From Strigamia acuminata (lineage: Eukaryota; Arthropoda; Chilopoda; Geophilomorpha; Linotaeniidae): a DNA stretch of 64,000 nt. The position numbers and the translations under genes are program-made. The number at the start of each line of letters is the position of its first letter. Within the stretch, counting starts at the first letter, position 1. The notes beneath the pieces are model-generated. The model was not told the origin of the DNA. It ran no database searches and worked only from the letters and a program-made list of their open reading frames with translations. Positions 19,717-56,390 of this stretch are shown in pieces. Location of the stretch: assembly GCA_949358305.1 (NCBI GenBank), contig OX442322.1, positions 2,542,001 through 2,606,000 of the forward strand, written 5' to 3'.

Positions 19717-21160
19717 ATGGGTTCGAATAAACATCATTCTAAACGAAGTCATCGTCGGCATCGACGAAGTTCCAGCTCCAGCTCATCCACCTCAACGGAG
19801 GGAGAACAGCGTCGTTCCGCCGAACGAAATTTGATAAGGTTGCAACAAATTGCACCTGTGCCGACGTTCAACCTGTCGCCACTTCAATTAGCCGCGCTGA
19901 ATTGGATTGGCTCGCACCCGGAATGCCTTCCGCTCGATATGCAAGCGAATGCGCCGTTGCCAACGGAAGTTCTTCCTGGGATAAGTGCCCAGCTGACTAT
20001 TTCTGAGCCTGCTCCAATGGCCCAACTGGCCCCGCTCGCGCAAGTGTTACACCCGCCGACTAACGTCATCAGTGTCCCGTTGGCTCCACACACGCCAGTG
20101 TTCTAGCCACCCGTAGCAAGTGTTCCGCCAATCGTCGCGAATACTTCCGTCGTTAGTGCGCCAGTTACAACGGTAGCTACGAATCCAGGATGGATTCCCG
20201 CCGGAGCAGAGTCGTCTGCCTCTTCGTCTGGATGGACGGAACCTCCGCCAGGAGCTTTTCGAATACCGGCATCGACGACCCGTCCCAACGCGCAGCGTAT
20301 GGCTTATAAAGCCAAGAAGAAGGACGAGGCGGCCCAAAAGCGCCGTGAGCAGTGTGCGCGGGATATTGCGCAGGGAATTCCCCACGACAATATTGTCACC
20401 GACCAAGCGACGGAGACCATCTGTCCATTTTGTGTTGGTTGTGGTTGGTGTTGCGGTGCTTCCGCCGGCTCTTCTCTTATGAGATGCCCCAACTGCCGAG
20501 GCACGAAGGTGCGACCGCGCTCAGAGCCCTGGCACAAGGAGGTGGAACTGCCCAATTTGTGGCGTGTTTCTCAACGCTCGAGGAGAAGCCGTTTACATCG
20601 ACCCCAGATTCCTCACAAAGGAACGAGCAGCTGCCAATGCGGGTTTGACGGTTGAAGCTTTCCGACACCCGCCTTCATCGACTGCCTCGGAGATTTCGGA
20701 GGAAACGGTGCAAGAAGTTGAGAGCGTCGAGGAAGAAGTGGTCGCTCGCCCGAGAACCATGTCTCGAGGACGGGGATGCCTTACACTGGACAGAGCTAAA
20801 GCTATTGCCCAGGAGCAGCGACAAAACATCGTCGCCCGTGGACGAGCCCGTCGGCTCCAGAAGATTGTGTCGGAGCAAGGTAAACAACCGGAGGTTCCTC
20901 CAGTGGCCAAGTCGGATATTTCCGACGAGTCGAAGTACGAGGATGCCGAGGAAAACCCGATTTCCATCGTTGACTTCGTGGCTGATCTTTTGGAAGATTT
21001 GCCGTTCCCTCCACCGAGTCCGGAGGAAGTGGAGAAACCCGAAGAAGCAGTATTTTCCGCCGTTTCCACCGAAGCGACTGAAGAATCTTCAGATTTCCTA
21101 ACTTCGACCGAAGTTGAGAAACCGGTTGAGAAGTCGACTGACGTCGAGAAGAAGAAGTAG
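19717..21160 (+). pseudogene. ORF3 of element A, cysteine-rich protein, disrupted
   Basis: This is homologous to the intact ORF3 of B (42352-43869). The ATG at 19717 starts MGSNKHHSKRSHRRHRRSS, an Arg/His/Ser-rich N-terminus. A TAG at 20104-20106 stops the frame after 129 codons; the same frame then continues through the cysteine cluster ETICPFCVGCGWCCG and MRCPNCRG. Near 20545 about 50 bp present in B is missing, which removes one Cys region and shifts the frame; the remaining C-terminal part reads in another frame from about 20560 to 21160, ending in an acidic tail with PFPPPSPEE. At least two lesions therefore block full-length product. No signal peptide or membrane segment is seen. Function unknown. 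Confidence 0.8.
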
Positions 21161-32003: not shown

Positions 32004-33751
32004 TGTGATGATTACAAATCGATAGTTATCAATGTTCACCATAGATGGCGCTGTTTAACCAACGCGCGTATTTCAAACTCGGTTAAAACTAAAAAGTGTG
32101 ATAAATAATTATTTAAACACGGTGAATAAAATATAACTATTTTATTCAATATGAATTAAGTATTAATTACTTGATGGTGTTGATTCTATCGAATCAATAT
32201 CCACATTACTTACCTGTCAAAGGGAACCAATCGGACCTTTCCGGACCCCAACTGGGCCCATCTGGACATAGTCATATATTAGGTCCGGACTAGTGACCCA
32301 CGAATCCACCGATTCGTACGCTGATTGGCTGTCGCCAATCTAGTAGTTCTACAGAACTATATAAGCTTCAGTTTTCTCACTTCCAGTGCTTGGCTTGATA
32401 ACTGAACTTGTATATTGTCTGTAGTTGAATTGTTATCGTTTGATTTCATTATTCTCTATCGACACATCAGGCCACCTCAGCTCTCCACAGTTAGTATTCA
32501 TTACTATTTTGTTATTGCTGTTGTAGGGCTATTTCGGGAAGGCTAACTCCGGTAATAGACATGCATCCGCATGAAATGGCCCCGTAACGTTAGCCAGCTG
32601 TTCTACGGGACAGTAGGACTTCGTACGGTGGCTTAATATAACGGTCGTATACAGTACGACCTTGCTAAATGAAAGTAGGTCCCTCAGCTAACTGGCCACA
32701 GTCCGCTGCAGGATGGTTGTTGTAAACAGCCCACGCAGGTTCCCGTCTTTCTACGATTGGTCCTTCCGCTCGTTAAAAGTCGGTAAAGGCCTAATGCACA
32801 GGTAACACGCCGGGTTGGTAGCCCGTGAGTAATATCTTCAAGATGTTGCGATAAATAACTACCTGGATAATGGTAATCCAACGGCAGTGGCCAAATAATA
32901 TTTTACCCGGTGCTCGATCATTGGATCCCGCCATCGTAAGGCATGCTGGCGGATGGAGGAGTCAAATCCTCCCGCGATGGTTCTCTCGACCGTCGTGACG
33001 GTCCCCGCCCCATCGTACCCTCCGGGTTAGTAACCCGTGAACAGGAGTTGAACAACACTGTGTTAAATAAATTACTCGGGCATTGGTAATCCTGTATTGG
33101 CAATATCTTTTTATACCGGTAAGTCCATAGAAATGTTTACCTGGTGGTTGGTACCACCGATAGCGAGTTAAAACACACAATTAAATACTCGGCGCCTGAT
33201 CACGAGATCTTGTCGTCGTAAGGCATGCTGGCGGATGGAGTCTCAACAACTCCCGCGACGTTCTTTCAATTGTCGTGACGGTCCCCGCCCAATTAATATT
33301 TATACAACAATTCATTTGTTGTATTCCACTAATTACTTTACTTTTATTCATTTGGAACATGGAATATTCTGCTGAATATTCCTACTTATGCGAAGGACTC
33401 TTTGCGTTATTAGATACTCGATGCTGCGGACCAAATACGTCTCCGTAGCGATATTTGTGACGATGCCGCAAGTCAGCCGTATCCCTCTGGCTTCGCCCGG
33501 ATCCTCAACCAGTTGATGCCGCCCGTTTACACGCGTCAAGAACCCATATTTTGTTGTTAATATTTAGTAATAAATATGTCATGTCACACTAAAACTGTAA
33601 GTTATTTCTACTTGATTACATATTCATGTTTGTGAAGGCTTCCGTAGCTTATCTCGGTTAGGTTGTTGCTAAACTTAGCAACGTCTTGTATAAACCGAAT
33701 TATCTATCTCAAAAAGGACTAATAAATTAGCCCAAAAGTAGAATCGTCACA
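32004..33751 (+). repeat. 5' LTR of element B
   Basis: Starts TGTGATGATT and ends CGTCACA. TATA box at 32358-32364, structured block at about 32520-33290, AATAAA at 33569-33574 and GTAAGT at 33597-33602. The hairpin unit GGCGGATGGAG...CCCCGCC is present twice (about 32950-33010 and 33228-33290), whereas A has it once. Short minus-strand ORFs here are not genes. Confidence 0.94.
32358..32364 (+). promoter_or_regulatory. LTR promoter TATA box (element B)
   Basis: TATATAA in GAACTATATAAGC, the same context as in element A, downstream of GATTGGCTGTCGCCAATC. Also at 44962-44968 in the 3' LTR. Confidence 0.65.
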
Positions 33752-33753
33752 AG

Positions 33754-33771
33754 TGGAGGTTCTACCGAGAT
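33754..33771 (+). promoter_or_regulatory. Primer-binding site, tRNA-Gln type (element B)
   Basis: TGGAGGTTCTACCGAGAT, identical to the site of element A and 2 nt after the LTR. Confidence 0.75.
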
Positions 33772-34878: not shown

Positions 34879-37104
34879 ATGACTAATAACCAGCATCACA
34901 TGAACACCCGTGGTAAGGACAGAACTTGTTTGACCGGTGGAATGAATCTATCCGGGTTTATACCTGTTCCTAATGGAACTGAAGAAGTGGAAAACCACGC
35001 GGTCCATAATGGCGTTTCAAATGAAACAGCCGGACCATCTGGAGAGAATAGGGCTCCACGTGAACCTACTCCGCCTGGAGAAGAGGAATGCATTCCTGAA
35101 GGTTCTCATTTAGGCCGAGGCGGTCTATTATTTTGTCAGGATCATGGTTTGAACCCAAACCAGTTTAGATCTTTGACCGAAGTGTTAGATTTTGTACACG
35201 CGCAACGTGCTACATCGGAGCATCCTAATTCCCCAGCCAGCCAAAGATTAAATAATTTTAGTCCCACTCCTTCGACGCCTATTTCTAGATATAGAAATAA
35301 AAATGCACAACCTCCTCAAGATCAGTCGAATTTGACACCAGGAGATTTTAATCGTGCTTTCCAACAACGATTACCAGCGAATAATTTCGCTCGCAACCAA
35401 CAAAGGGGATTTACAAATCCAGAGAACTTTGAGAATACGTTCACCAGAGCGAATTTGGGTCCGCCTAATATGGCCAACCCTAATCCAAGTTTTCCAAACG
35501 GATCCAATAGTTGTCCGAATCTCGCTGGAAATTTGAACCCAAATTCAGGTGCGACAAGAGGTCCAAACCGCCGTTTTGACCCAAATTCTAGATTTGCAAA
35601 CAATTCTAGTCCAGCACCTAACATACAAAGGGGTCACCCAGTTCCTCCGAACTCGAATAACCCAAATAATCCTTCTACTGGAACTCCAGGAAATTCAAAT
35701 AACTATTTGAATCGGGGTACGCCAGGTAATTCGAACTATCGTCCGAATTTTGGTAATCAAGAAAGTTCGAACAACCGTCCGAATTTTGACAATCAGGGTA
35801 ATTCTAATAATCATTCGAATTATGGGAACCAAGGCAATTCGAATAACCATTCGAACTTTGGTAACCACAGCAGGTCAAATCAAGGAGGGTCGAATAATTT
35901 CAACCCTAATAGTGGTGGCTCAAGTCAAAATAACTCGAGTCAACCAAATAATGGCGGGTCGTCAAACGACAACTCGCGCCCCCCCAGTAGCTTTGGAATG
36001 ACGGCTGATGACCTCGCGTCAATTGCCACGACCATGCACAAGTTGATGCAGGCAGGAAAAAGTTCCGCCACTGTCCCTCAAACTAACTGTTTGAAACCAC
36101 CAGATATCCCTGTATTCTCCGGAAAAGCAGAAGAAAGCGAACGCTTTCTCAATATTGTAAAAAATGTCGCTTTCCTGCGAAACATGTCACTCGATGACAT
36201 GCTTGTTAAAGGCGTGGCCGGTTATTTAACCGAGCAAGCGCATGGTTGGTTTCATGAAAGGAGAGAAGATTTCATATCTTGGGAAGTATTTGAACAGGCG
36301 TTCAAAGAACGGTTTGTAGCCACTCGACAAGAGCGGACGAACCAACTAACTAAGTTGAAACAACTAGAAACAGAAAGTCTTTACGACTTTATGCACAAAT
36401 ATTACCAGTTATGGATATTACAAGACAGTCTTGATGCAAAAGGGGCTGGTTGTCTTTTTATCGGGAGTGTAACTCCTGCTAATGATTTGCTTTTGCATAC
36501 GCAAGGCATAGCGGATTTGCCTCTGACAGAGATTTATACCGTTATAACAAAAAATAAAGGCTTGTACAGTCGTACAGCTAATGGAGCAAGGGAAAATATT
36601 TCCAATCCAGTTGTTTTCCCACCTCGGAAAACTGACACTCGTCCTCAGCCAAAGACAAATGTTAAATCTTTAACTTTGGATTCACAAGAACAACTTAATA
36701 TTTGTGAAGAAGAGTTACCTGAGGAATGCGAGGCCGTTTATTTAATAAATGGAGTAGTGGATCAGACCAGACGTGGTCAATTAGTTTGTTACCACTGTAA
36801 GAAACCAGGACACATGCGTCGAGAATGTCCAGATTTAAAACCACGTGCAAATTTCAACTCTGAAGAGTTGCAAAAACGAAGTACGCCGGATTCCCCGACT
36901 GTGGATCCTACTTCTAAACGTCCTAATAATAGGTGGATAACTCAAGAAGTGTTGGATGCAACACTAGATGCTAAACTTGATGCGAAACTTAATACTTTTG
37001 AAAATAAGTTACAAACTTCGCTGACTAACTCGTTGGCAGAAATGGTCAAGACTTTGATCAAGCCCGAATCTGCTGATTCAAGTGCGACTAGTTCAAAAAA
37101 CTAG
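34879..37104 (+). CDS. gag: Gag of element B
   Basis: The intact 741-residue Gag starts MTNNQHHMNTRGKDR at the first ATG after the leader; the homologous start in A supports it. After the N-terminus comes an Asn/Gly/Ser-rich tract (about residues 185-365) with repeated NNHSNFGNQ-type units, then a retrotransposon Gag domain (about 405-515; FSGKAEESERFLNIVKNVAF, GYLTEQAHGWFHERREDF, FEQAFKERFVATRQERT). The zinc knuckle CYHCKKPGHMRREC (C637, C640, H645, C650) is the nucleic-acid-binding nucleocapsid part. A conserved QEVLDATLDAKLD motif near the C-terminus looks like a short coiled coil. It builds the virus-like particle; Gag-Pol is produced by frameshifting at the last codons. Confidence 0.93.
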   Translation: MTNNQHHMNTRGKDRTCLTGGMNLSGFIPVPNGTEEVENHAVHNGVSNETAGPSGENRAPREPTPPGEEECIPEGSHLGRGGLLFCQDHGLNPNQFRSLTEVLDFVHAQRATSEHPNSPASQRLNNFSPTPSTPISRYRNKNAQPPQDQSNLTPGDFNRAFQQRLPANNFARNQQRGFTNPENFENTFTRANLGPPNMANPNPSFPNGSNSCPNLAGNLNPNSGATRGPNRRFDPNSRFANNSSPAPNIQRGHPVPPNSNNPNNPSTGTPGNSNNYLNRGTPGNSNYRPNFGNQESSNNRPNFDNQGNSNNHSNYGNQGNSNNHSNFGNHSRSNQGGSNNFNPNSGGSSQNNSSQPNNGGSSNDNSRPPSSFGMTADDLASIATTMHKLMQAGKSSATVPQTNCLKPPDIPVFSGKAEESERFLNIVKNVAFLRNMSLDDMLVKGVAGYLTEQAHGWFHERREDFISWEVFEQAFKERFVATRQERTNQLTKLKQLETESLYDFMHKYYQLWILQDSLDAKGAGCLFIGSVTPANDLLLHTQGIADLPLTEIYTVITKNKGLYSRTANGARENISNPVVFPPRKTDTRPQPKTNVKSLTLDSQEQLNICEEELPEECEAVYLINGVVDQTRRGQLVCYHCKKPGHMRRECPDLKPRANFNSEELQKRSTPDSPTVDPTSKRPNNRWITQEVLDATLDAKLDAKLNTFENKLQTSLTNSLAEMVKTLIKPESADSSATSSKN

Positions 37105-37139: not shown

Positions 37140-40100
37140 GTGGCTAATGCTACGTCGGAATCTTTATTTATGGATGTAGACACAACTTGTCTTGAAGTAG
37201 CCACTAGTCATAGTGGCGGAGTAGAGGAAAATTTGCAAGAAATGACAGAACAATTAAAAAATCTGACATTATTTCCTCACAAGTGTTACACGAAGAAATT
37301 CTGTAGACTTCGCCGACTCAACAGAGTCATAGGCGGCAATAATTTGCACAATATTACTTTAGGTAATAATAAAGATGATCCTCGAATGAAGATCACAATT
37401 GGTGGGCTCACCTATAACGCGCTCATGGATACAGGAGCATCTCAATGTTACATTGGAGAACAACTTTTGTCTGAAACTCAGGCTCTGCCGGAATTTTTGC
37501 AAGAGGCTCCCAGAAACATGTTGGTTAACGCTGTAGGCGTAGCACACAAGCCTGTCGGACAAATAACTTTGTGCGTGCAATGGGCTGATGAATTTACACC
37601 AATGAATTTCATCGTTTTAGCAAAACGAATTTGTGGCTTGATACTTGGCCACAATTTCATGCGCAGACAGAAAATTAGTCCGCATCCACATTTACAAGAG
37701 TTCTCTTGTGCAGATAAACCTAATTGGTCCGCTCCTTATGAATCGGAAGAAGCCAATTTGGCCCTGGCCCCATTAAATCGAATTACTTTCGATTATTTAG
37801 GACTGTCGTCCACTCTCAACTCAATTGAGTTAACAGACACTCCTGTGTTGACTTGGGATGAAAAATTAGTTGAGGAGAGCGACTGCACTCCGGAACAAAG
37901 ACTAGCACTTCGCGAAGTGGTTAACTCAATACCGAATGTATTTCGTGATCAAGTTGGGTGCACTAACGTGACCCAACATCGTATTAAGTTCAAAGAAGGG
38001 CATTCATTGCCCAAAATGCAGTATAGAATGTATAACCCGGCCAAGAGAGCCATTATGACCAAACTAGCTGCAGAATTGGAACAGGATGGACTCATTGAAA
38101 AGGCCAAAGGGCCCTTCATAAGTCATCCCGTCATTGTTGCGAAGCCTGACGGCTCGTATAGGATGTGCATTGACTACCGGTGGCTAAATGCCATCACTGA
38201 AGTCGAAGTAATACAAATGCCAAGTATTGACCTTTTATTGCATAATACTGGTCCGGCAAAGTATTTTACGTCTATTGACCTTGTCAAAGGTTACTACCAA
38301 GTCGAGATGCGTGAGGAAGATCGTCCAAAAACGGCGTTTTATACGCCAAACGGCCCTTATCAATTTGTGCGAATGCCGTTCGGCCTTTGCAATGCGCCTT
38401 GTACTTTCCAGCGTCTGATGGAAGGCATTTTAGGCTCAGCTTTACAAGACTACGCATTAGTTTATTTGGATGACGTAATTGTGTATTCAGATAATTGGGA
38501 TGATCATCTCAAACATGTCCGAGATGTTTTGGAAAAGCTTAACCAAGCCAACATGACGATAAATAAAGCGAAATCTCGTTTTGGGCGTACAGAATTAAAA
38601 TTCTTGGGCCACTGGATTAAACCCGAAGGTCTCTTCGGTGATCCCGATAAAATATCGGCGATCATGAAATTTCCCACCCCCACGTGTGCTAAAGACATTC
38701 AGCGCTTTCACGGCATGACTAACTTCTTCAGGAAGTTTGTTCCAAATCACGGAACTATTGCCGCACCATACACACGTATGATGAATGAGAAAACTCCATT
38801 TGAATGGGGAGATGAGCAGACAGAAGCTTTTAATAAAATTAAAGAGCTACTTTGTGGTGACAATTGTCTACACAAACCAGATATGACTTTACCATTTGTT
38901 GTCATGACTGACGCTTCACATGAAGGCTTAGGAGCTGTCCTTTGCCAAGACGTCGATATATTCGATGAAAAGAAGCAGAAAAACATTTCTGTACCCAAAC
39001 CTGTAGCTTATGCAAGCAGAGTTTTACGTGGAGCGGAGAAGCGTTATACAACGCCGGAACTCGAATGTCTCGCAGTCGTGTGGGCTATTGATCGATTTAA
39101 ACCATATCTCGAATATGGTACATTCACTTTAGAGTCAGATGCAGAAGCACTGAAATGGTTGATGCGAACGCCTGAACCATCTGGGAAATTTGGCCGATGG
39201 GCCTTAAGAATCCAATGTGGAAATTTTAAAATTGTTTTTCGAAAAGGTGCTGCTAACCAAGTTGCAGATGCACTTTCTAGAGCCCCACTAACAGAGGAAG
39301 ACATTCCTCTTCGTGATCATGTGGAACCTGTCGAAATTAAACAATACTGGCCTGAATGGGACGGAAATCCTTCTGTTTCATTAAATCGTGCCCCGGAGAA
39401 ACGAGAATATTTGGCTAGTGTGCGTTCCTATTTTTCAGAAAATTCTAAAGAATGTTCTGAAGAAAAGGAGGGGGAGGAAGTACAAGAAACCTTGTACAGT
39501 GCGTTGACTGAAGTACTTAAAGAAGTCCCTCCTACAAGGAGAGAAATAATAGATGCTCAGTTACTAGATACTGAATGCAAACGCATTCGAGAATATTTAT
39601 TGAATGACAAGGTTGTTGGGATACCACAATCTGAAATAAAAGAATGGAAAAACAAAGTCAAAAACTATTGTTTAGACAAAAAAGAAATTGATGGTGATCA
39701 AATGATCATCTATTTTAACCCTTCGTTCGAAGAGGAATTAAACGATTCGGGAAACGGCTTTAAAGCCGTTGTACCCAGTTCACTCGTAAAACGAGTACTC
39801 TTTGCTTGTCATGGCCACCCCCTAAGCGGTCACGCTGGGATGAGTAAGACGCTTGAGAAAACGCGTTTAATATATTTCTGGCCTGGTATGAGTAGAAGTG
39901 TCAGGAACTACGTCAAAAGTTGCACGCACTGTGCTCAGTACAAGCCTATTCAACAGAAAAGGCACGCAGCTCCTTACACGCCACACAACATGACCAATCC
40001 TTGGGAATGTATTAACATGGACTTGATGGGCCCAAAACCCGCGGGAAGGTCCCAAAACCAGTATATTTTTGTCATTATTGACAATTGTACCAAGTTCGTT

Positions 40101-41300
40101 GAAATTAAGGCTTTGACCAAAGCCACGAGCGCTAACTGCGTTCAAGAATTAAGATCTGTTACAAACAGTTGGGGACACCCCAAAAAGATTGTGAGCGATA
40201 ACGGAAAACAATTTGTTTCCGATATTTACAATGAGTATTGCGAAATGTACAACATTCGCCCGTCCCATACAAGCACGTATCATGCCCAGGCGAACCCGAC
40301 AGAGCGAGCCAATAGAGATATAAAGACGATGCTGGCCCTGTACACAGATGTGCACACGCAATGGCCACGTTATCTAGACGAATTCGCGTTCGCGATGAGA
40401 AATAATGTCTCAGCGGCAACGGGCTCAAGCCCAATGTTACTGAACACAGGACGAATCGTAACATTACCTTTCGACCCAAGGATTATTAAACATGCCAATC
40501 CATTTGACAAAGAAAATCCAGAAAAATATGTCAGAGTACTATTAGATATATTACGTAGATCGCATCAAGAGATGCATCGCAGAATTCAATTGAATTTTGA
40601 ACGACATAGAAAAATACACGAACAAAAGTTCGTAATTACGGAGTTCGAAGTTGGAGATTTAGTTTGGAAACAGACTCACATTCTCTCGTGCGCAGATAAA
40701 AATATCTCCGCTGGATTTGCCGAGAAGAGAGATGGACCGTGGGAAATTACTAAAGTACTTCCTGGCGGAGCGTATAAATTACGCAAATTATCTGATGGTT
40801 CGATCGAAAAATCAGTGAACATTAAAGCGTTGTACCCCTATACGCCCTCATACCCAATTGAGACTTGGAAAGTAGGACAAAAGTCCGCCTCTTACTCGCC
40901 TCAAGACAATCCTAAATGGATGGACGAAAGTAATCAACTTCCGGATGCTGAAGAAATGGAATTAATTCCTGAAACTTCCTCAGAAATTCCAATGGAATTA
41001 TCCGACTCAACTTCAGTGCAGATTGACAAATCTGCGCCAACAAAGTCTAAACATAGACATAGACAACGCTTAACTGCTATGGAAAAGAAAGCGGCGTTAA
41101 AAAGAGGTGAAGTTCCAAAGAAACCACCTCGAAAACCCCGCAAACCCCAACCGATAGTTCCACGAACTAGCACTCGTCCACGACGAGAACGAAAACCAAA
41201 TCCTAAATATGCAGATGAAAATTTCGTGCGAAACATCACTGCAGTATTTAAAAAACCTTACCAACAACGAGGAAAAGCCTCAAAGTTTTGTTGGAATTGA
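37140..41300 (+). CDS. pol: Pol polyprotein of element B (PR-RT-RNase H-IN)
   Basis: The 1386-residue ORF (first ATG) is probably translated from the frameshift at about 37098. Domains as in A: protease LMDTGASQCYIG (about residue 95), reverse transcriptase with RMCIDYRWLNAI, FTSIDLVKGYYQVEM, RMPFGLCNAPCTFQRLM and YLDDVIVYS, RNase H beginning VVMTDASHEGLGAV with ESDAEALKWLM and QVADALSRAP, integrase HHCC (HGHPLSGH, then CTHC) and DDE (NMDLMGPK, SDNGKQF, NPTERANRD). A GPY/F-like module KRDGPWEITKVLPGGAYKL follows. The C-terminal tail is Lys/Arg/Pro-rich and ends 15 residues longer than in A. All catalytic residues are intact. The product copies element RNA into DNA and inserts it. Confidence 0.96.
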   Translation: MANATSESLFMDVDTTCLEVATSHSGGVEENLQEMTEQLKNLTLFPHKCYTKKFCRLRRLNRVIGGNNLHNITLGNNKDDPRMKITIGGLTYNALMDTGASQCYIGEQLLSETQALPEFLQEAPRNMLVNAVGVAHKPVGQITLCVQWADEFTPMNFIVLAKRICGLILGHNFMRRQKISPHPHLQEFSCADKPNWSAPYESEEANLALAPLNRITFDYLGLSSTLNSIELTDTPVLTWDEKLVEESDCTPEQRLALREVVNSIPNVFRDQVGCTNVTQHRIKFKEGHSLPKMQYRMYNPAKRAIMTKLAAELEQDGLIEKAKGPFISHPVIVAKPDGSYRMCIDYRWLNAITEVEVIQMPSIDLLLHNTGPAKYFTSIDLVKGYYQVEMREEDRPKTAFYTPNGPYQFVRMPFGLCNAPCTFQRLMEGILGSALQDYALVYLDDVIVYSDNWDDHLKHVRDVLEKLNQANMTINKAKSRFGRTELKFLGHWIKPEGLFGDPDKISAIMKFPTPTCAKDIQRFHGMTNFFRKFVPNHGTIAAPYTRMMNEKTPFEWGDEQTEAFNKIKELLCGDNCLHKPDMTLPFVVMTDASHEGLGAVLCQDVDIFDEKKQKNISVPKPVAYASRVLRGAEKRYTTPELECLAVVWAIDRFKPYLEYGTFTLESDAEALKWLMRTPEPSGKFGRWALRIQCGNFKIVFRKGAANQVADALSRAPLTEEDIPLRDHVEPVEIKQYWPEWDGNPSVSLNRAPEKREYLASVRSYFSENSKECSEEKEGEEVQETLYSALTEVLKEVPPTRREIIDAQLLDTECKRIREYLLNDKVVGIPQSEIKEWKNKVKNYCLDKKEIDGDQMIIYFNPSFEEELNDSGNGFKAVVPSSLVKRVLFACHGHPLSGHAGMSKTLEKTRLIYFWPGMSRSVRNYVKSCTHCAQYKPIQQKRHAAPYTPHNMTNPWECINMDLMGPKPAGRSQNQYIFVIIDNCTKFVEIKALTKATSANCVQELRSVTNSWGHPKKIVSDNGKQFVSDIYNEYCEMYNIRPSHTSTYHAQANPTERANRDIKTMLALYTDVHTQWPRYLDEFAFAMRNNVSAATGSSPMLLNTGRIVTLPFDPRIIKHANPFDKENPEKYVRVLLDILRRSHQEMHRRIQLNFERHRKIHEQKFVITEFEVGDLVWKQTHILSCADKNISAGFAEKRDGPWEITKVLPGGAYKLRKLSDGSIEKSVNIKALYPYTPSYPIETWKVGQKSASYSPQDNPKWMDESNQLPDAEEMELIPETSSEIPMELSDSTSVQIDKSAPTKSKHRHRQRLTAMEKKAALKRGEVPKKPPRKPRKPQPIVPRTSTRPRRERKPNPKYADENFVRNITAVFKKPYQQRGKASKFCWN

Positions 41301-41372
41301 TAAGTTTTATTCAAAACTTGAAGACTGTAATTATTTACATGTCTGACAGGTGTAGTGATTTATAATCTCAAC

Positions 41373-41381
41373 ACCGGGGGA
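41373..41381 (+). promoter_or_regulatory. Candidate internal polypurine tract (element B)
   Basis: ACCGGGGGA, identical to the 3' tract at 44597-44605 and to the internal site of A. It lies 70 bp after pol in an otherwise diverged region. Confidence 0.45.
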
Positions 41382-41592
41382 CAAGATATTACGATATTTA
41401 TTGAAATTTATATTAAAATATGAATTTGTTGCGATGAATTAAATATTCGATAGAATATTTTAATTTTTTGGTCGTATTTACATGTGTTTTAACCAAAATA
41501 CAGAGAATTACTTTGAAAAGTGATAATCTCGCGTAATTACGAAGGTACGAGACTTACGAGGTGTGATTAAACCTCGAACCCGACAATTAATA

Positions 41593-41607
41593 GGGAATAA
41601 AATTCCC
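41593..41607 (+). other. Conserved short hairpin between pol and ORF3 (B)
   Basis: GGGAAT-AAA-ATTCCC, a perfect 6-bp stem. Compare GGGAT-AAAAA-ATCCC in A. It is followed by the shared CAGGGTTCATTGCACAC. Confidence 0.45.
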
Positions 41608-41744
41608 AGGGTTCATTGCACACAAACACTTCGTAAAACACGTGGATACAAGTGACTTCGTCCCTTCGTCCCTCTTCATTTTTCGACTCGAGATTTCAAC
41701 GCTAATTCAATTAGCAACCTCAGCAAGGAAAACAAGCTTCAACA

Positions 41745-42351
41745 GTAAGTAGTTTTCAAATATATTCTTTGACCAAAGAATTGGAAAAATTGTTCGCAAC
41801 AATTGAAAAATATCGGCGTCCCGATAAAAAATTAGAAATTCACGTGTATTATAAGCGTGAATCGGCATTAAATCACTCTGGAAGTTTAGCTATTCAGTCG
41901 AATAGTTGGGTTAAATATTAATAATGAATTATTAAGATTTAAGTATGTAGGCACTAATTATTTAAATCAAGTCGCGGTCGAGGCTTGCATAAATTATTTG
42001 GCGATGAATTTTCGATGTAAGATATTTATTAGACTAAGTGTTAATTAATTAATACGAAAAGTTATCTTTGATACTCGGAAGTTGGATTAAATAGTTTACA
42101 AAACTAAGGGGATTTTTTCTTTTGAAAAATCAACAAGTTGCGATTTTCGATGAAAAATCACTGTCAGGCGAGTCCATTCTCGTGTCATAAACACAAGGGG
42201 AATGAGACTCATTAGTGTCACGTGTTAAGGGTTATAAATAACTCGAGTTGTGTATTTTCGTTGCGAACAATACGTTTTAATTCTTTGGACTCAAGGAATG
42301 ATTATTTAGAGTGGAATTATTTTTAATAAAATAATTTATTTGCGTCTGCAG
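41745..42351 (+). other. Candidate intron in the ORF3 leader (element B)
   Basis: The donor-like ACAGTAAGTAG (GT at 41745) matches the consensus well. The acceptor-like TTTATTTGCGTCTGCAG ends at 42351, immediately before the ORF3 ATG. The length is 607 bp, against 600 bp in A. It is noncoding and contains TATAAATA (42233-42240). An LTR donor (33597-33602) could also join to this acceptor. Confidence 0.55.
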
Positions 42352-43869
42352 ATGGGAAGTGGTAAGCACCGTTCAAAACGGAGTCATCGACGACACCGAC
42401 ATGAAAGCTCCAGCTCGTCCACCTCGTCTAGTGACGAGCAACGCCGTTCAGCGGAACGTGCTTACATGAGGGCCCAACCGATACCAACGGCGCCCGCCTC
42501 GATGTACGCCCTGACGCCGCTGCAACTCGCAACGCTTAATTGGCTGAGCGTCCATCCGGACGGACTTCCGCTCGACTTAAATGCGATGATGCAGGCCCCA
42601 TCCACTTCTGCGCAGCCAACCGTTTATGAGTCGGCGCAATTGGCCCCGTTGGCCCAGGTAGCATATCCGCCTGTAAACGTTATTAATGTCCCGTTGGCCC
42701 CGCATTCGCCAGAATTTCGGCCGCCAACTGCAAGCGTGGCGCCCACCGTCGCCAACACGTCGAATGCGGCTGCACCGACTGTGACGGGACAATCAGCGTC
42801 TGCTACGCATCTTCCTGCTGGTGCTGAGTCTTCTGCGTCAGAATACGGATGGAATGAGCCGCCGCCGGGCGCTCTGCGTTATTCGGAGCCTGTTTCTCGC
42901 AACCGCGAGTACCGAGCGGCCAACAAGGCCAGAAAGAAGGACGAGAAGGCCCGCCTGCGCAAGGAGCAGTGCGAACGAGACATGGCAGCCGGAATACCTC
43001 ACGATAACATCGTGACGGACCAGGCAACAGAGACGATCTGCCCATTTTGCGTCGGCTGTGGGTGGTGCTGCGGTGCATCCGCAGGCTCTTCTCTAATGCG
43101 TTGTCCAAACTGCCGTGGAAGGAAAACGCGACCGCGTTCGGAGCCGTGGCGCAAGGAGGTTCAGCCCCACGTGGTGAAAGGCATTAAGCCTAACGAGAAG
43201 CGATGTTGGGCTCACTGCCCAAAGTGCCGACTTTTCTTGAATAGTCGCGGCGAAGCGGTTTACATCGACCCGCGCTTCCTCACCTGGGCCCGCGCTGAAG
43301 CCAACGCCGGTGTAAGAGTCGAACTCCTTCGACAGTCGCCGCCGCCATCTGAGGACTCCGAAGTTTCTACTGAAACTGTCCAAGCCGTCGAGAGCGCCGG
43401 AAGCGAGGTGCAGGAAGAATTCGTTCGACCAAGAGCGATGTCGCGTGGACGAGGCTGTCTGACGCTCGACCGAGCGAGAGAAATTGCCAAGGTTCAACGA
43501 ACCAACATCTTGGCACGAGGGCGAGCTCGTAAGCTTCAACAGGCTGTTGAAACGTCGTCTAAACCCGTGGAGGATCCTCCAGCGGCCGTAACCGACGTGT
43601 CTAGTGCCCCTCCAGCGTCTAAGTCTGAGACTTCGGACGACGCACAGTTCGAGGACGCCGAGGAGTTGCTCTCCGTCGTCGATTTCGTGGCCGAGTTGCT
43701 CGAGGATCTGCCGTTCCCACCTCCGAGCCCAGAAGAGATTGAAGCTCCGGAAGAAGCTGTGTTTTCCGCCGTCTCGACAGAGGCGACTGAAGAATCGGAT
43801 TTTCTGACTTCTGCTGAAGTCGAGAAAAAGGAAGAGGAAGATTCGACTAACGTCGAAAAGAAAGAGTAA
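42352..43869 (+). CDS. ORF3 of element B: Arg/Ser-rich, cysteine-cluster protein
   Basis: I chose the ATG at 42352, giving 505 residues, because it directly follows an AG acceptor and matches the start in A; an in-frame ATG lies 4 codons upstream. Order: a basic N-terminus MGSGKHRSKRSHRRHRH with a Ser run (1-28), a Pro/Ala-rich segment (80-180), a basic helix-like stretch (182-210), and a cysteine cluster C230, C233, C236, C239, C240, C251, C254, then C285, C289, C292, with CxxC spacing typical of zinc-binding folds. An MSRGRGCLTLDRAREIAK stretch (363-380) and an acidic, Ser/Glu-rich tail (about 425-505) follow. There is no signal peptide, membrane segment or fusion peptide, so it is not an envelope protein although it sits in the env position. 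A nucleic-acid-binding regulator is a guess. I know no named family for it. Confidence 0.85.
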   Translation: MGSGKHRSKRSHRRHRHESSSSSTSSSDEQRRSAERAYMRAQPIPTAPASMYALTPLQLATLNWLSVHPDGLPLDLNAMMQAPSTSAQPTVYESAQLAPLAQVAYPPVNVINVPLAPHSPEFRPPTASVAPTVANTSNAAAPTVTGQSASATHLPAGAESSASEYGWNEPPPGALRYSEPVSRNREYRAANKARKKDEKARLRKEQCERDMAAGIPHDNIVTDQATETICPFCVGCGWCCGASAGSSLMRCPNCRGRKTRPRSEPWRKEVQPHVVKGIKPNEKRCWAHCPKCRLFLNSRGEAVYIDPRFLTWARAEANAGVRVELLRQSPPPSEDSEVSTETVQAVESAGSEVQEEFVRPRAMSRGRGCLTLDRAREIAKVQRTNILARGRARKLQQAVETSSKPVEDPPAAVTDVSSAPPASKSETSDDAQFEDAEELLSVVDFVAELLEDLPFPPPSPEEIEAPEEAVFSAVSTEATEESDFLTSAEVEKKEEEDSTNVEKKE

Positions 43870-44596
43870 AAAGGGACAAAATTAACATTCGTTTATTTTT
43901 CCGAGTGGAGATTTTTATGACTAAAAATGCTCCAAGTGTTTGTTGTGTTTTTTTTGCCATTACGAAATATTCCCACAAGTATTGTGTTTGTTTCAAGATT
44001 TTGAACTAATCATTAAAATACTCGAACGAGTATAGTTTAATTTTAAAATTGGATTCAATTTAATTTTTCGTTTTCGAATTCAATTTGAGCATTTATGGAA
44101 CTAATCATATTAATATATGTTTGTTTGATTTATTTGCGAATTTCATAATTATTTGTGGAAATTGTGTTTGTTTTGCTTTGTTCAAAGTGTTGAAGAATTT
44201 CAAGTTGAAATTCAATAATTTTTATGACAATCGTAATAAAAATTACTAGTTTAGATTTTCGATAAATAAAATTTTGCATAAGTTTATTTTTTATTGATTA
44301 TCTTGTTGATTAATAAGCTATGAATAAGTTTATTTGACGGAGAATTAAAATTTCTATCGAAATTAGTTTTCTCGAACATGTATCCATGTTCGGACGAGTT
44401 CATTTCCGTCGCTTAGCAACCGGGAGTTGCGCAGTGCAGAGAAGCCGATTAGTCTAATCGGGTGACGAAGTTTCTGAAAGAAATAACATGATTAAGTTAA
44501 TAAAAAACTTACCAAGTGGATTAATTCGATAGAATTAGGTGAACATTCTTATTCATTAAGAATGACAATCGAGAGTTAGTAAACTCTATGCTTGTC
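43870..44596 (+). other. 3' untranslated region of element B
   Basis: AT-rich and noncoding. It contains GTCGCTTAGCAAC (44408-44420), a variant of the leader palindrome, and GAGTT-AGTA-AACTC just before the purine tract. Confidence 0.6.
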
Positions 44597-44607
44597 ACCG
44601 GGGGATG
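44597..44607 (+). promoter_or_regulatory. 3' polypurine tract (element B)
   Basis: ACCGGGGGATG directly before the 3' LTR (44608), identical to the tract of A. Confidence 0.7.
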
Positions 44608-46355
44608 TGTGATGATTACAAATCGATAGTTATCAATGTTCACCATAGATGGCGCTGTTTAACCAACGCGCGTATTTCAAACTCGGTTAAAACTAAAAAG
44701 TGTGATAAATAATTATTTAAACACGGTGAATAAAATATAACTATTTTATTCAATATGAATTAAGTATTAATTACTTGATGGTGTTGATTCTATCGAATCA
44801 ATATCCACATTACTTACCTGTCAAAGGGAACCAATCGGACCTTTCCGGACCCCAACTGGGCCCATCTGGACATAGTCATATATTAGGTCCGGACTAGTGA
44901 CCCACGAATCCACCGATTCGTACGCTGATTGGCTGTCGCCAATCTAGTAGTTCTACAGAACTATATAAGCTTCAGTTTTCTCACTTCCAGTGCTTGGCTT
45001 GATAACTGAACTTGTATATTGTCTGTAGTTGAATTGTTATCGTTTGATTTCATTATTCTTTATCGACACATCAGGCCACCTCAGCTCTCCACAGTTAGTA
45101 TTCATTACTATTTTGTTATTGCTGTTGTAGGGCTATTTCGGGAAGGCTAACTCCGGTAATAGACATGCATCCGCATGAAATGGCCCCGTAACGTTAGCCA
45201 GCTGTTCTACGGGACAGTAGGACTTCGTACGGTGGCTTAATATAACGGTCGTATACAGTACGACCTTGCTAAATGAAAGTAGGTCCCTCAGCTAACTGGC
45301 CACAGTCCGCTGCAGGATGGTTGTTGTAAACAGCCCACGCAGGTTCCCGTCTTTCTACGATTGGTCCTTCCGCTCGTTAAAAGTCGGTAAAGGCCTAATG
45401 CACAGGTAACACGCCGGGTTGGTAGCCCGTCAGTAATATCTTCAAGATGTTGCGATAAATAACTACCTGGATAATGGTAATCCAACGGCAGTGGCCAAAT
45501 AATATTTTACCCGGTGCTCGATCATTGGATCCCGCCATCGTAAGGCATGCTGGCGGATGGAGGAGTCAAATCCTCCCGCGATGGTTCTCTCGACCGTCGT
45601 GACGGTCCCCGCCCCATCGTACCCTCCGGGTTAGTAACCCGTGAACAGGAGTTGAACAACACTGTGTTAAATAAATTACTCGGGCATTGGTAATCCTGTA
45701 TTGGCAATATCTTTTTATACCGGTAAGTCCATAGAAATGTTTACCTGGTGGTTGGTACCACCGATAGCGAGTTAAAGCACACAATTAAATACTCGGCGCC
45801 TGATCACGAGATCTTGTCGTCGTAAGGCATGCTGGCGGATGGAGTCTCAACAACTCCCGCGACGTTCTTTCAATTGTCGTGACGGTCCCCGCCCAATTAA
45901 TATTTATACAACAATTCATTTGTCGTATTCCACTAATTACTTTACTTTTATTCATTTGGAACATGGAATATTCTGCTGAATATTCCTACTTATGCGAAGG
46001 ACTCTTCGCGTTATTAGATACTCGATGCTGCGGACCAAATACGTCTCCGTAGCGATATTTGTGACGATGCCGCAAGTCAGCCGTATCCCTCTGGCTTCGC
46101 CCGGATCCTCAACCAGTTGATGCCGCCCGTTTACACGCGTCAAGAACCCATATTTTGTTGTTAATATTTAGTAATAAATATGTCATGTCACACTAAAACT
46201 GTAAGTTATTTCTACTTGATTACATATTCATGTTTGTGAAGGCTTCCGTAGCTTATCTCGGTTAGGTTGTTGCTAAACTTTGCAACGTCTTGTATAAACC
46301 GAATTATCTATCTCAAAAAGGACTAATAAATTAGCCCAAAAGTAGAATCGTAACA
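44608..46355 (+). repeat. 3' LTR of element B
   Basis: Same length (1748 bp) as the 5' LTR, with about seven substitutions seen by eye. The terminal inverted repeat has one change (CGTAACA). Target copy GCCT at 46356-46359. Confidence 0.94.
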
Positions 46356-47160
46356 GCCTCACAAGCACCTTCTCAACTGGATCGTTGTGTTGCAACTTCA
46401 GCTTCTCGCACGTCTCATCATTGCTCGTACCCCGTTTATTTCTCCCTCGTTTCTTGTTTCTGCCTCGTTTCGTTCGTTTTCCTTGGCCGTCGTTTGATTT
46501 CACATCGATTTCCACGTCAACAGCGTCCAAACTCTCGTCGATTATATCCAAATTTGATTCGTTCGTTTTTTTATTTTCGGAAATATTAGGTTGTGCTTCC
46601 CCGCATGACAGCAAATCACCAAACTCGTCTTCGCCATTTCCGCCGAACTCATTTAACTTCTCGTTAGCTACGGACAATTTCGCATACATTTTATCTCTTT
46701 CGGCATTAAATTTGTCTTTTTCGTCAAGTCTAGCCAATTTCGCATCTATTTCGATTCGCTTGGCATCTAGTTCGTCCATCTTCGCATCCAATCTCGCCAG
46801 TTTTTTGTCAAGTTTCAGTTTGACACTTTTGCTGTTCAAATCGTCGCTTTTCTCGTCCAAATCGTTTCTCATACGGCCGTCCAAGCTCCACGTTTCGTCT
46901 GCGTTGCTGTACACTTCACCGTCGTTTGCCTCGTTATCTCGTGGCTGCATTTCCTCCGCACCTGCTTCTTCGTCCTGGCCCATGAACGTGCATACTGCAC
47001 CTTCTCGGATCTTCAAGAGTGCAGCTGTATTCACAATGGTTTCGACGTTTAAACGATATACTTCACCAATCTTTGTGGCAGTCATTAGTGCTTGATTCCC
47101 GAATGAAATCGTACACATTCCGCCCCCAAAAACAATTCGTAATCCCACATTGTCTAACAT
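46356..47160 (-). CDS. Coiled-coil ORF of a minus-strand Copia-like element, cut by B
   Basis: The minus-strand frame from the ATG at 47160 begins with a Copia-like piece (LRIVFGGGMCTISFGNQALM, then GEVYRLNVETIV). It then changes to an unusual charged tail: heptad-like KLARLDAKMDELDAKRIEID with further copies, a Glu/Asp-rich part, and a Lys/Arg/Gly cluster (KRTKRGRNKKRGRNKRG). At 46355 it meets the 3' LTR of B; across the insertion, using one GCCT copy, the same frame continues for about a dozen codons at 31960-32003 before a stop. The frame after 46355 (to 46273) is LTR sequence and not part of the original protein. No integrase or RT follows. Confidence 0.55.
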
Positions 47161-48543: not shown

Positions 48544-49239
48544 CACTGCAAAAAAAGTGAGATTTCCGGTATGGAAAATGTGTGGGAAATGTTATGGAAA
48601 GAACTACTTTCCATACGTGGAAATGTTACATTTTCATACTGTGTAAAGGTTATGTTTACACATCATATTTCCATATGAAAAGACATCTTTTCCATATCAT
48701 CTTTCCATAAGATTTCCCTATCTGTGTGATTTCATATTTCCATTAAATTTACATACTGTTTGATTTCAAATTTCCATTACATTTACATATTGGTTGATTT
48801 CCATATTTCCATATCATTTCCATTTCATTTCCATATCATTTCCATTTTATTTCCATATCATTTCCATGTTGGTTAATTTAATATTTCCATACCATTTCCA
48901 TGTTGGTTAATTTAATATTTCCATTTCATTTCCATACTGATTGATTTCATATTTCCATTATATTCTCATAGATTATATATGACATTTCCACAGTATTTTT
49001 TTTTTACTTTCTTGTTAAATTTTTTTTTTATTTTTCATTTTTTTTATTGTTTTTGTTAGTTTTAACTAACTAAAAAAAGAATTCACAAATTTATATATTT
49101 TTAAAATTATTTATTTTATTTCAGACGTTCTGTGGAACAACTTACACTTCCAAAGCCTTAAATAATATATTGGTTTATTAAACACATTACGTAATCATTT
49201 TCTTGACAAGTTAAATCATCATAAAGTTCTACAACCAAA
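48544..49239. repeat. CACTA-like end and degenerate TTTCCAT-rich repeat
   Basis: CACTGCAAAAAAAGTGAGA (48544 on) resembles the other CACT termini. From about 48660 to 48970 many copies of a TTTCCATATCA/TTTCCATTTCA word occur in loose tandem. No partner end was found, so element limits are open. No gene. Confidence 0.5.
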
Positions 49240-53636: not shown

Positions 53637-56390
53637 TCACCTCTTTCCTGGGAGACCCGACACTGAGTCCGTCACCTGGGCGTAACTCACTCCAAGGACA
53701 GGCGGTTGAGTGCCGGGTGGCGCGGGTAGATCGCCTACTAGCGCCGAGGACCGATCACGGGGGTCCTCATGCTCCGTAATGAAACATAATGCATGGCCGT
53801 CAACTGGCTCATGCGGGGCACGCGTCCTCTCGTGTAACCAAACGCTCGGGATGTAGGCGGAGAAGCCGGTGTTCGTATGCCGGATGGCATTGGCTTCCGC
53901 TGGCGTCACTGGCGCACGGTGGGCTCTCAGCAACCTCTGGTGGAAGATGAGGTCTTTAGTCTTCCGGATCTGGTTGTGAAGCCAGATGAAGACCGATTTG
54001 CCTTTGTCCCGCTGCGCGAGGATAAACCTCCTGGTCGCCGTCGTCATCGAAAGATGGGGAAACTCGTCGATGATTCGCCCATAATAGTCTGGTGGAGGCG
54101 GTGCCGGCTTCGGCTTCTGGGTGGCCGCGGGAATCACGGCTTGCGTCGTTGTCGCCGCTCGGGCCGGTGAGGTCCCGGGCGGTGTCGGCTTCGTTTGCTC
54201 GACGGACCTGACGGGTGGCGTTCGGCACAGCAAGCGCTTTGGTTTACCCGCCACTTCGAACAGGGCGGGTCCTTGCGGGGATATCTCCGCAGGCATCGGT
54301 GGCGGAATCGGAACTCCGCTCGTCGGCGAGATCACCATGTCTACATCCTCTGCCGATTCTTCCGTCTGGATGGTCAAGGCGCGCAGTTGTTGGGTAGGCG
54401 CCGCTGTCCAGGTGGCGGAGGTGTAACGAAACGCCGTGCTTCGCAACTTGTACCCCTCGAATTCGGGGTTTACCACATCCCTGGTTAGCTCGTACCGAGT
54501 CAACACAGGGTCGGGCAGAATGGAGCTCCACTCTGCGAGGAGTGCACGGGGAACCTGTACACCCTCTCTGTCCACGACAGACCATGCGGCCATCGCCTGA
54601 CGCCCTTCTCCGAAGAGTGCTGGGGTTAGCAGCTGCATCATGACCTTGGTCAATGATAGCTGTAGGCTGCGACGATTCACTGGATTCGATCGCTCTGAAT
54701 CCGCAGTGAAGGCACGCGAGAGCTTACTCATCATCGCGATAGCCCATTCGATAAAATATCGCTGTGTCTGATCCACACCTCGCAAGGCGGGCGCGGAGAC
54801 TCTGGGGTCTTCCATCACGAAGCGAAACGCTGAGAGCTCGGAGATAGTCGGGTTGGCGGCTTCTCTCGCGAGTCGCGCTTCTTCGTCTCGCCTCTCGAAG
54901 AACAGGGCCGAGGAACCGGGTCGGGGTCGGCTCGGCCTGTAAATGTCGGTCAAATTGGCTCGACATTCCTGCATAATGCTCTGTCCAACGGGGAGAGGGA
55001 CTGAGCGGTCGGTGGGTAAATCCGGCGGATCGCTCGAATTCAACAACGACGGTGGCGGCAGGTCCGGAGGCGGCTGCGTCTTGGTCGGCAGCGTCGGTGG
55101 CGGCGGCTGCGTCGGCGGTGGTGGCGTCTCCGTCGTCTGCACCCCAGTCATTGCGACTTGGGGCGCCGGGAGATGTTGTTCGGAGCTCGAAGGCTGCACG
55201 ATGGCGGTTGGCATGCCATCGGGTCGCGGTCGCGAATTTATGTAGTCTGCGAGCCACCTTGCCACCTCGTGTGGGGTCACCTTTCCGTCGGTGACAACAC
55301 CCATCTTCCTGGCGTGTTTCATCGCGGGATCGAAACGTGTCAGTTTCGTCCGCTTCATCTGAGTCAGAATCTCGCGAAGGTCCCGCGTATCTGTCGCTGG
55401 GACGTTTCGCTCACCTGACTGGCTACCACTTCGTCGACCCGCTCTCTTGGAGATGTAGGCGGGTTCGGGGATGGGACGGCCCCGAGCTTCGCACCTCGCG
55501 AAGTATCGCTCCTTGCGATCTTTTTTCCGCTGCTCGCGATGAGTCAGCGGACGTCTAGAAGTGCTGGGACGAGAGACTCGCTCTTCATCACCAGACATCC
55601 AAACCTCCTTGCACTCCTTACCGTCTTTAATCTGACGGTTTACGAAAATTCGCGGTCGGGAATACTGCGAAGGGTCACGCACCGTACTAGTGGATGGCCC
55701 AGCTTCGTTGCCTTCAGTCGTGTTTTGAGTGACACGCTGCTTCTTGGCTGTCACCGGGGAACGCGACTGGCTGTTCCCGGCGCCTTTGGAGCGCTTGCGC
55801 TTCCGCGGGTAGCTGCTTTTGGGCCCCAAAATCCCCAGGTGGTGGAGCTGCCACATCTCGGCTTGGGACGTTAAAATTCCCATCCGAGGTCTCCACTGGG
55901 GCGTACTCTCTCCCAATCGCAGCCTCTCAAACCACAGATGAATATCATCCGCGGTCATCCCCTCGTTTTGGAGGATGCGCTCGGCCACTGCCGCAGCGGT
56001 ATCCACCAGCTGTTGTCTATACTGCTGATAGATGGCCTCACGGGCCTCTTCTGTCTCGGCTGCTCGCCACGCATGCAGCACGTGTTCCTCCGCCGGAGTG
56101 CCAGTGTACTGACTTGACAATCCGGGGTGGAAAATTGGCGATTTCGGGTCCTCGTCACGAGCTAACTCTGTGGCGATGCCTTCGCGCATCCCCTCCGGGA
56201 ACGTGTCCAGGAGCGTACAGTCTCGTACCCAACGTCGGGCGATGCATCGGGAATGTAGTATTCGCAGGCGCCAAGGGTCGGCGTCTTCGCCGAAACATCG
56301 TCGGTAGAATTCGGGCAGCGCGCCTCGAAATATCCCGCCACGAGCGATGCAAGCGGGGTCTAATGGTCCCCATGTTTTACGTAATGCCAT
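53637..56390 (-). CDS. ORF3 of element C: 917-residue protein of unknown function
   Basis: The ATG at 56390 is chosen because it directly follows a strong acceptor TTTCTCCATCCTTCCAG; an upstream in-frame ATG at 56414 would add 8 residues encoded by that tract. The protein has an N-terminal helical, Arg/Glu-rich domain (1-190), a basic cluster PRKRKRSK (195-202) followed by AKKQR, likely nuclear-localisation signals, a second basic region (about 265-330), a Pro-rich linker (about 430-485; PPPPTQPPPP), a conserved-looking globular part (about 520-690), and a C-terminal region with DYYGRIIDEFPHLSMTTATR (about 785). I see no signal peptide, membrane segment, zinc knuckle or enzyme motif. It is not visibly related to ORF3 of A/B. 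It lies 24 bp from the polypurine tract, the place of env in retrovirus-like elements. The long plus-strand ORFs here are shadows. Confidence 0.8.
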   Translation of the reverse strand: MALRKTWGPLDPACIARGGIFRGALPEFYRRCFGEDADPWRLRILHSRCIARRWVRDCTLLDTFPEGMREGIATELARDEDPKSPIFHPGLSSQYTGTPAEEHVLHAWRAAETEEAREAIYQQYRQQLVDTAAAVAERILQNEGMTADDIHLWFERLRLGESTPQWRPRMGILTSQAEMWQLHHLGILGPKSSYPRKRKRSKGAGNSQSRSPVTAKKQRVTQNTTEGNEAGPSTSTVRDPSQYSRPRIFVNRQIKDGKECKEVWMSGDEERVSRPSTSRRPLTHREQRKKDRKERYFARCEARGRPIPEPAYISKRAGRRSGSQSGERNVPATDTRDLREILTQMKRTKLTRFDPAMKHARKMGVVTDGKVTPHEVARWLADYINSRPRPDGMPTAIVQPSSSEQHLPAPQVAMTGVQTTETPPPPTQPPPPTLPTKTQPPPDLPPPSLLNSSDPPDLPTDRSVPLPVGQSIMQECRANLTDIYRPSRPRPGSSALFFERRDEEARLAREAANPTISELSAFRFVMEDPRVSAPALRGVDQTQRYFIEWAIAMMSKLSRAFTADSERSNPVNRRSLQLSLTKVMMQLLTPALFGEGRQAMAAWSVVDREGVQVPRALLAEWSSILPDPVLTRYELTRDVVNPEFEGYKLRSTAFRYTSATWTAAPTQQLRALTIQTEESAEDVDMVISPTSGVPIPPPMPAEISPQGPALFEVAGKPKRLLCRTPPVRSVEQTKPTPPGTSPARAATTTQAVIPAATQKPKPAPPPPDYYGRIIDEFPHLSMTTATRRFILAQRDKGKSVFIWLHNQIRKTKDLIFHQRLLRAHRAPVTPAEANAIRHTNTGFSAYIPSVWLHERTRAPHEPVDGHALCFITEHEDPRDRSSALVGDLPAPPGTQPPVLGVSYAQVTDSVSGLPGKR

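Follow-up and report, generated by a model that had tools for sequence, protein, structure and literature searches.

A conserved cysteine-rich, non-Env gene in the env position of a Gypsy retrotransposon family of the centipede Strigamia acuminata

The third ORF of a complete Gypsy element of the centipede Strigamia acuminata (ORF3 of element B) encodes a cysteine-rich protein that is not an Env. ORF3 is a gene family of two subfamilies, A and B, with many open copies, and is no accident. It is an accessory, lineage-specific Gypsy gene with a published analogue, the CERV protein of the Caenorhabditis elegans element Cer1. The best explanation, to which as a whole a probability of about 0.45 is assigned, is that ORF3 functions as an accessory gene in a Gypsy (Ty3-like) retrotransposon family that was active recently, and that its product would be expressed by splicing and act, in the manner of CERV, as a nuclear regulator of the element's unspliced RNA.

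Element B and its third gene

The window, i.e. the whole stretch of 64,000 nucleotides that was analysed (G000:C13:2542001-2606000, in a searched genome of 237.5 Mb), contains three Gypsy elements, A and B on the forward strand and C on the reverse strand (Table 1). Element B is a complete Ty3/Gypsy (Metaviridae) element, with the order PR-RT-RH-INT, LTRs, a tRNA primer site and a polypurine tract all present. Its LTRs differ by 7 mismatches in 1748 positions, without gaps, and the 4-bp TSD GCCT is found on both flanks. The tRNA-end pattern corresponding to the primer site occurs three times in the host genome, and both loci tested with ARAGORN are tRNA-Gln. Among the candidates scored in a database of 5.8 billion proteins, pol of B has 2919 relatives including arthropod ones, the best named match among those listed being from the centipede Strigamia maritima (49% across 44% of the query length); together with the scarcity of odorant-receptor matches given below, this points to a host that may be an arthropod other than an insect. 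Pol and ORF3 are separated by 1051 bases in which the longest listed ORF has 53 codons. ORF3 is followed by non-coding 3' sequence, then by the polypurine tract and finally by the 3' LTR.

Table 1. Coordinates in the window of the features of elements A, B and C
Feature	Position	Strand	Remarks
5' LTR, element B	32004..33751	+	TG...CA, 1748 bp
Primer binding site, element B	33754..33771	+	complementary to the 3' end of host tRNA-Gln (TTG)
gag ORF, element B	34879..37104	+	741 aa; Retrotrans_gag, CCHC zinc knuckle
pol ORF, element B	37140..41300	+	PR, RT, RNase H, INT
Probable conserved RNA structure	41269..41663	+	covers the end of pol and the bases that follow; within the presumed ORF3 intron
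G-rich tract CACCGGGGGACA	41372..41383	+	directly after pol; near copy of the 3' polypurine tract
Predicted 3' splice site TTATTTGCGTCTGCAG	42336..42351	+	ends exactly at the ORF3 ATG
ORF3, element B	42352..43869	+	505 aa; Cys-rich non-Env accessory protein
ORF3 residues 214-256	42991..43119	+	near-invariant block with CPFCVGCGWCC and CPNCRG, both subfamilies
3' polypurine tract CACCGGGGGATG	44596..44607	+	adjoins the 3' LTR
3' LTR, element B	44608..46355	+
A-type ORF3 copy, element A	19717..21160	+	broken; ATG at 19717
ORF3, element C	53637..56390	-	917 aa from ATG; non-Env, env position, AG/ATG start

The initial annotation had described an intact ORF of 505 residues in the env position of B, with an Arg/Ser-rich N-terminus, ten cysteines, an acidic tail and no membrane segment. 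This description holds throughout: the ORF is the third gene of the complete element, the net charge is +7 across residues 1-40 and -25 for the final 105 residues, and the ten cysteines (230, 233, 236, 239, 240, 251, 254, 285, 289 and 292) are all present, with two more (207 and 369) outside the cluster. The highest 19-residue Kyte-Doolittle average is only 1.1 and the N-terminus is charged, so that no membrane segment is indicated. The protein is organised as a basic Ser-rich N-terminus, a Pro-rich linker, a basic Cys core and an acidic tail, and starts with Met-Gly in both subfamilies.

A homologous, broken copy had also been reported in element A and was found there, interrupted by one internal stop and one frame break, with 64% identity to B in each of its two pieces. 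The core TICPFCVGCGWCCGASAGSSLMRCPNCRG is identical in A and B, as had been reported. The third Cys group (285, 289, 292) is interrupted in the element A copy, where the frame break falls, and is whole in the A-type copies whose ORF3 is intact.

Copy number and selection

In a search of the genome with ORF3-B, 85 of 788 candidates were scored, all of them nearly full length and at 95-100% identity; 78 of these 85 have no stop in the match, a fraction biased upward because the copies scored were the best-scoring ones. The C-terminal half of the A copy yielded 205 matches, of which at least 35, at 92-99% identity, are A-type. Among 51 ORF3 loci examined the gene is intact in 43, which encode 33 distinct proteins. 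ORF3 is seen in both subfamilies, on many contigs and also as degraded relics. A polypurine tract and an LTR start lie downstream of it at 39 of 41 loci (L001-L041), the remaining two being relics.

All 33 distinct proteins have the ten clustered cysteines and C369, and 32 of them have C207. The block of residues 214-256 is invariant among 13 representatives drawn from both subfamilies, and its conservation exceeds chance. Between one copy of each subfamily (L001 and L012), 26 of its 43 codons differ, the changes counted being 26 silent ones, at 30 silent sites, and a single non-silent step, so that selection acts mainly on the protein.

Ratios of dN/dS were computed by the Nei-Gojobori method on the 33 distinct intact coding sequences, L018 being left out for its long insertion. 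Median values were 0.098 within A (65 of 78 pairs, dS>0.1) and 0.096 within B (182 of 190 pairs, dS>0.1). The median between A and B, 0.129 (260/260 pairs), is rough since silent sites are saturated at that distance (pooled pS 0.69), which is not the case within the groups (pooled pS 0.18 within A and 0.24 within B). For the Cys core (residues 227-300) the A-B median falls to 0.037, computable in 186 of 260 pairs. A comparison of the window elements A and B gave 0.154 for gag and 0.069 for pol, which places the constraint on ORF3 at about that of gag. The selection suggested by the initial annotation is thus confirmed as strong purifying selection over many copies, with dN/dS of about 0.1 and not near 1. 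The excluded L018 (G000:C5:11012039) is an A-type ORF3 that an in-frame insertion extends to 614 residues, with an open reading frame.

Searches for homologues and for a fold

No relative of ORF3 was found above the cut-off in Pfam or NCBIfam, nor among solved structures (PDB). The protein database, which includes eukaryotes, was scored for the candidates sharing most words with the query; none of the nearly 8000 candidates scored out of 5.8 billion was an ORF3 relative, whether a single sequence or 12 were used, and among these candidates no similarity to CERV or Rev was seen with the single sequence or the alignment. In IMG/VR 33 stretches fitted a pattern, and 0 of 33 encoded a relative. 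Two matches to solved structures were attributed to chance, one of the Cys core alone to p300 (E 0.07) and one of the ORF3 alignment to a ribonuclease (E 0.09). In agreement with the initial annotation, the matches listed in these searches include neither an Env nor a host homologue of ORF3. Pfam gave no Env family match for ORF3-B, and neither the signal peptide nor the transmembrane segment of errantivirus Env (env-F) was recognised in its hydropathy profile and charged N-terminus; an Env or env-like fusogen was rejected given this composition together with the lack of a family match. Pfam also gave no match in ORF3-B to the esterase (GDSL) or exonuclease (DEDDy) domains of the rotifer type, and no DNA-binding family match or homologue was found in Pfam or the protein database. 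No description of ORF3 was found in the literature searched, mostly non-subscription papers.

A confident zinc fold of the Cys region, named by the initial annotation as possible support for a functional gene, was not obtained: AlphaFold2, given a shallow input, returned mean pLDDT values of 43.5 and 37.3 and the fold was unusable. The central domain of DnaJ carries CXXCXGXG zinc hairpins, and the pattern CPFCVGCG...CPNCRG of ORF3, formed by its first two Cys pairs, resembles these and fits the CXXCXGXG of the anti-TRAP hairpins, although ORF3 has extra cysteines. The match to anti-TRAP (PF15777) reached 20.3 bits (E 5.6e-4), below the curated cut-off of 32.

Predicted splicing of the ORF3 message

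All AG dinucleotides between the pol end and the first part of ORF3 were scored as acceptors with a simple matrix of general, unfitted frequencies. In B, the acceptor at the ORF3 ATG ranks first of 69 AG sites (41301-42700), and in A the top acceptor of 80 ends one base upstream of the ATG. The acceptor sequence differs between A and B while its AG is kept. Against splicing, a good acceptor is missing in two of the 43 intact A/B copies, L047 having no AG there and L007 a poor one. Several sites may serve as donor. GGTGAT, about 90 bases past the primer site, is aligned in the two elements (33844 in B, 11153 in A). GTG/GTAAGG inside gag (34913 in B, 12206 in A) is kept in both as well, yet it was rejected, since its use would place the gag AUG, in another frame, ahead of ORF3. 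None of the sites listed for A corresponds to 33119 in the LTR, which is the most donor-like position of B. The ORF3 mRNA is therefore predicted to be probably spliced, on the strength of the acceptor and with several candidate donors.

The GC content of ORF3-B is 0.58 vs 0.42 for gag and pol of B, and that of ORF3 of element C is 0.60 vs 0.47-0.50. Such a high value would be consistent with an exon that borders a long retained intron; other causes are possible.

RNA structure and G-rich tract after pol

Folding was assessed in 19 chosen windows of 150 bases by z scores against shuffles. In the windows directly after pol, z was -2.4 and -2.4 for the first two of B (300 bases) and -2.8, -3.3 and -2.6 for the first three of A (450 bases). 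One leader window (-2.8) and one window of the 3' stretch (-3.5, the best of the 19) also fold well, so that good folding is not special to the post-pol stretch. A common structure was derived from 18 of the 20 located copies, two near-identical B copies being left out. In it 99.3% of 1318 cells are paired, vs 34-53% when partners are slid, a high figure that partly follows from the use of this alignment to derive the structure. Cells with both sides changed number 22 vs 8.4 in shuffles (reached in 0 of 500). Pairs with both sides changed (4 vs 3.1, reached in 140 of 500), three of which coincide with the one divergence between A and B, and further pair types (18 vs 18.9, reached in 497 of 500) stay near the shuffle level; a post-pol RNA structure is thus likely, the covariation being no proof of it.

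Inside the structure, GTGTAGTGATTTATAATCTCAACACCGGGGGACA was located in 20 of the 21 sequences examined, 15 of these being exact and five having one or two changes. The G-rich tract, which adjoins a nearly invariant hairpin, was likewise located in 20 of 21 sequences, with its 12 bases exact in 19 of those. This tract repeats the 3' polypurine tract and is possibly a central polypurine tract; in place of a part in the RNA target, it might serve as a primer for plus-strand DNA.

Comparison with known systems

Cer1 is a Gypsy/Ty3 element of C. elegans whose CERV protein, in the part of the published account that was available, is described as encoded in the env position, expressed from a spliced mRNA, nuclear and provided with a Cys-rich loop; a stop mutation in CERV blocks export of the genomic RNA, and residues of the Cys loop are reported essential for export (PMC10309623). 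CERV and ORF3 share the env position, the lack of likeness to Env, a Cys-rich region and a lineage-restricted sequence, and are of similar length (517 and 505 aa), while the spliced mRNA is known for CERV and predicted from sequence for ORF3 (PMC10309623). As far as that account goes they differ in Cys spacing, in the placing of CERV exons 1-3 in the gag reading frame whereas ORF3 is seemingly complete from its own ATG, and in the three domains predicted for CERV as against no confident fold for ORF3 (PMC10309623). Given the other Cys spacing and the absence of detected homology, ORF3 is said here to work like CERV, not to be CERV.

Third ORFs that are not Env are also present at the env position of LTR elements of bdelloid rotifers, where, in the available portion of the source, they are typically expressed from spliced messages and encode enzymes of recognisable homology (GDSL, DEDDy), while ORF3-B has no Pfam match above the cut-off (PMC5408684). 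In Drosophila errantiviruses, according to the text consulted, the splice that yields the env message starts from a leader exon, from an AU dinucleotide or from a site inside gag (PMC12992720). The env-F genes of gypsy, ZAM and idefix lie, like ORF3, downstream of pol and are expressed from a spliced subgenomic mRNA, as is predicted for ORF3 (PMC12992720, PMC4276936, each seen in part), but ORF3 is devoid of a hydrophobic signal or transmembrane segment. A further likeness is with sORF1 and sORF2 of the MDG1 group, accessory ORFs that in arthropod Gypsy elements show low dN/dS; the sORF1 protein of element 412 is nuclear (PMC11952523). In the passages of this source that were available, and unlike ORF3, the two are about 110 and 70 aa long, usually located upstream of gag and read from unspliced transcripts, and sORF2 is a membrane protein (PMC11952523); the single transmembrane segment of sORF2 and FAST fusogens is not seen in ORF3.

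Possible function of ORF3

The preferred reading, to which the probability given above applies, is that of a spliced nuclear regulator acting like CERV on the element's unspliced RNA. ORF3 would be read from a subgenomic mRNA made by splicing, with a last exon predicted to begin at the ATG or one base before it. The protein would probably be nuclear by virtue of its Arg-rich N-terminus and bind zinc through its Cys core. The RNA it acts on would be the element's unspliced transcript, whose export in that form it would most likely aid, a task performed by CERV in Cer1 and by Rev in HIV. The candidate target is the conserved hairpins after pol, which would be present in the unspliced RNA and absent from the ORF3 mRNA. 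The control of RNA export, splicing or transcription suggested by the initial annotation thus stays a hypothesis, though a specific and testable one, based on the predicted acceptor, the probable RNA structure in the presumed intron and the precedent of CERV. The sequences establish the gene, where it lies, how many copies it has and the selection on it; they support the acceptor and, with less certainty, the RNA structure. An NES-like motif at residues 446-455 was set aside: the protein has five such motifs vs 2.1 expected in shuffles, which is not above chance, and they carry little information.

The same features can be read in other ways. ORF3 could be a counter-defence protein, Cys-rich, Arg-rich and nucleic-acid-binding, that suppresses piRNA or siRNA silencing by targeting the host machinery. 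Many recent, near-identical copies are what a family evading silencing would leave, and plant viruses encode small Cys-rich silencing suppressors which the basic and Cys-rich make-up of ORF3 recalls. Arms-race proteins usually evolve fast, whereas the core of ORF3 is very slow (dN/dS of about 0.04), and suppression would leave both the splice acceptor and the post-pol RNA structure unexplained, which makes this reading unlikely. A Tat- or Tas-like activator of the LTR promoter, with a basic Cys-rich core and an acidic C-terminal activation region, would account for the strongly negative tail, in which hydrophobic-acidic segments are conserved, and for closely spaced cysteines reminiscent of HIV Tat; it is considered rather unlikely given that neither a homologue nor a DNA-binding family match was obtained and that the RNA structure examined sits after pol and not at the start of the transcript.

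A role in particle assembly or in Env-free transfer from cell to cell is quite improbable. The Met-Gly start shared by the two subfamilies is a precondition for N-myristoylation, but residue 6 of ORF3 is His where myristoylation sites usually have Ser or Thr. The env position itself would suit such a factor, since insect elements without env use an accessory ORF for transmission, in the available part of the source; sORF2 of the MDG1 elements is the model, and the absence of a membrane segment sets ORF3 apart from it (PMC11952523). That ORF3 is a captured host gene or a random ORF without function for the element is very improbable: its GC content, higher than that of gag and pol, could indicate a foreign origin, but the dN/dS of copies on many contigs contradicts a functionless ORF, and among the matches examined the gene is present in both subfamilies and in relics, with the tract and LTR start behind it at 39 of the 41 loci.

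In the literature searched, CERV of the nematode is the sole worked example of RNA export by env-less LTR elements outside vertebrate retroviruses. The large and recently expanded ORF3 family, with its conserved gene, predicted acceptor and candidate RNA target, makes the nuclear exit of intron-containing genomic RNA testable in a second animal group. It also suggests that some ORFs in the env position that are regarded as env are something else.

A different ORF in the env position of element C

Element C, with 35% identity to B in pol, carries its own ORF3 (ORF3-C) directly upstream of a polypurine tract and an LTR-like start. Homology of ORF3-B and ORF3-C was rejected (BLAST E 0.013 over 35 residues, hhalign probability 1.5). 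ORF3-C showing no visible relation to ORF3-B, and each occupying the env slot, this slot, judged from the sequences, is filled by two different non-Env ORFs in one genome. In the search with ORF3-C, 49 of 2339 candidates were scored; 48 are full-length copies (45 stop-free) and one copy is in two pieces. The acceptor exactly at the ATG is the second of 100, 0.08 below the best, and AG/ATG is found in 10/10 intact copies among the 12 examined. Values of dN/dS range from 0.20 to 0.33 (24 of 45 pairs, dS above 0.04), and the evidence of selection is weaker than for ORF3-B because the C copies are so close. The first third of ORF3-C matches GDSL lipases at E 0.18 only. A wider reading can be offered tentatively, and is itself doubtful: the env slot might have been used at least twice in this genome for unrelated spliced non-Env regulators, with the A/B gene and the RNA structure after pol forming an independent Rev/RRE-like export system built on a new Cys-rich family.

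Other observations

Pieces of Copia-type gag/pol (Retrotran_gag_2, Pol_BBD) are present at 4022-5203 (-), 26825-28193 (+) and 47063-47821 (-) of the window. Outside elements A and B, the segments 1038-1820 and 30733-31513, 29.7 kb apart, contain 300-base repeats that are 98-99% alike, and a tandem array of about 10 copies of a 42-base unit occupies 49136-49710. Elsewhere in the genome, one of five contig starts examined, that of contig C1, consists of 3 kb of CCTAA/TTAGG repeat, a sign of an arthropod genome. The insect odorant receptor family PF02949 has one borderline match in the whole genome, a number that would be low for an insect.
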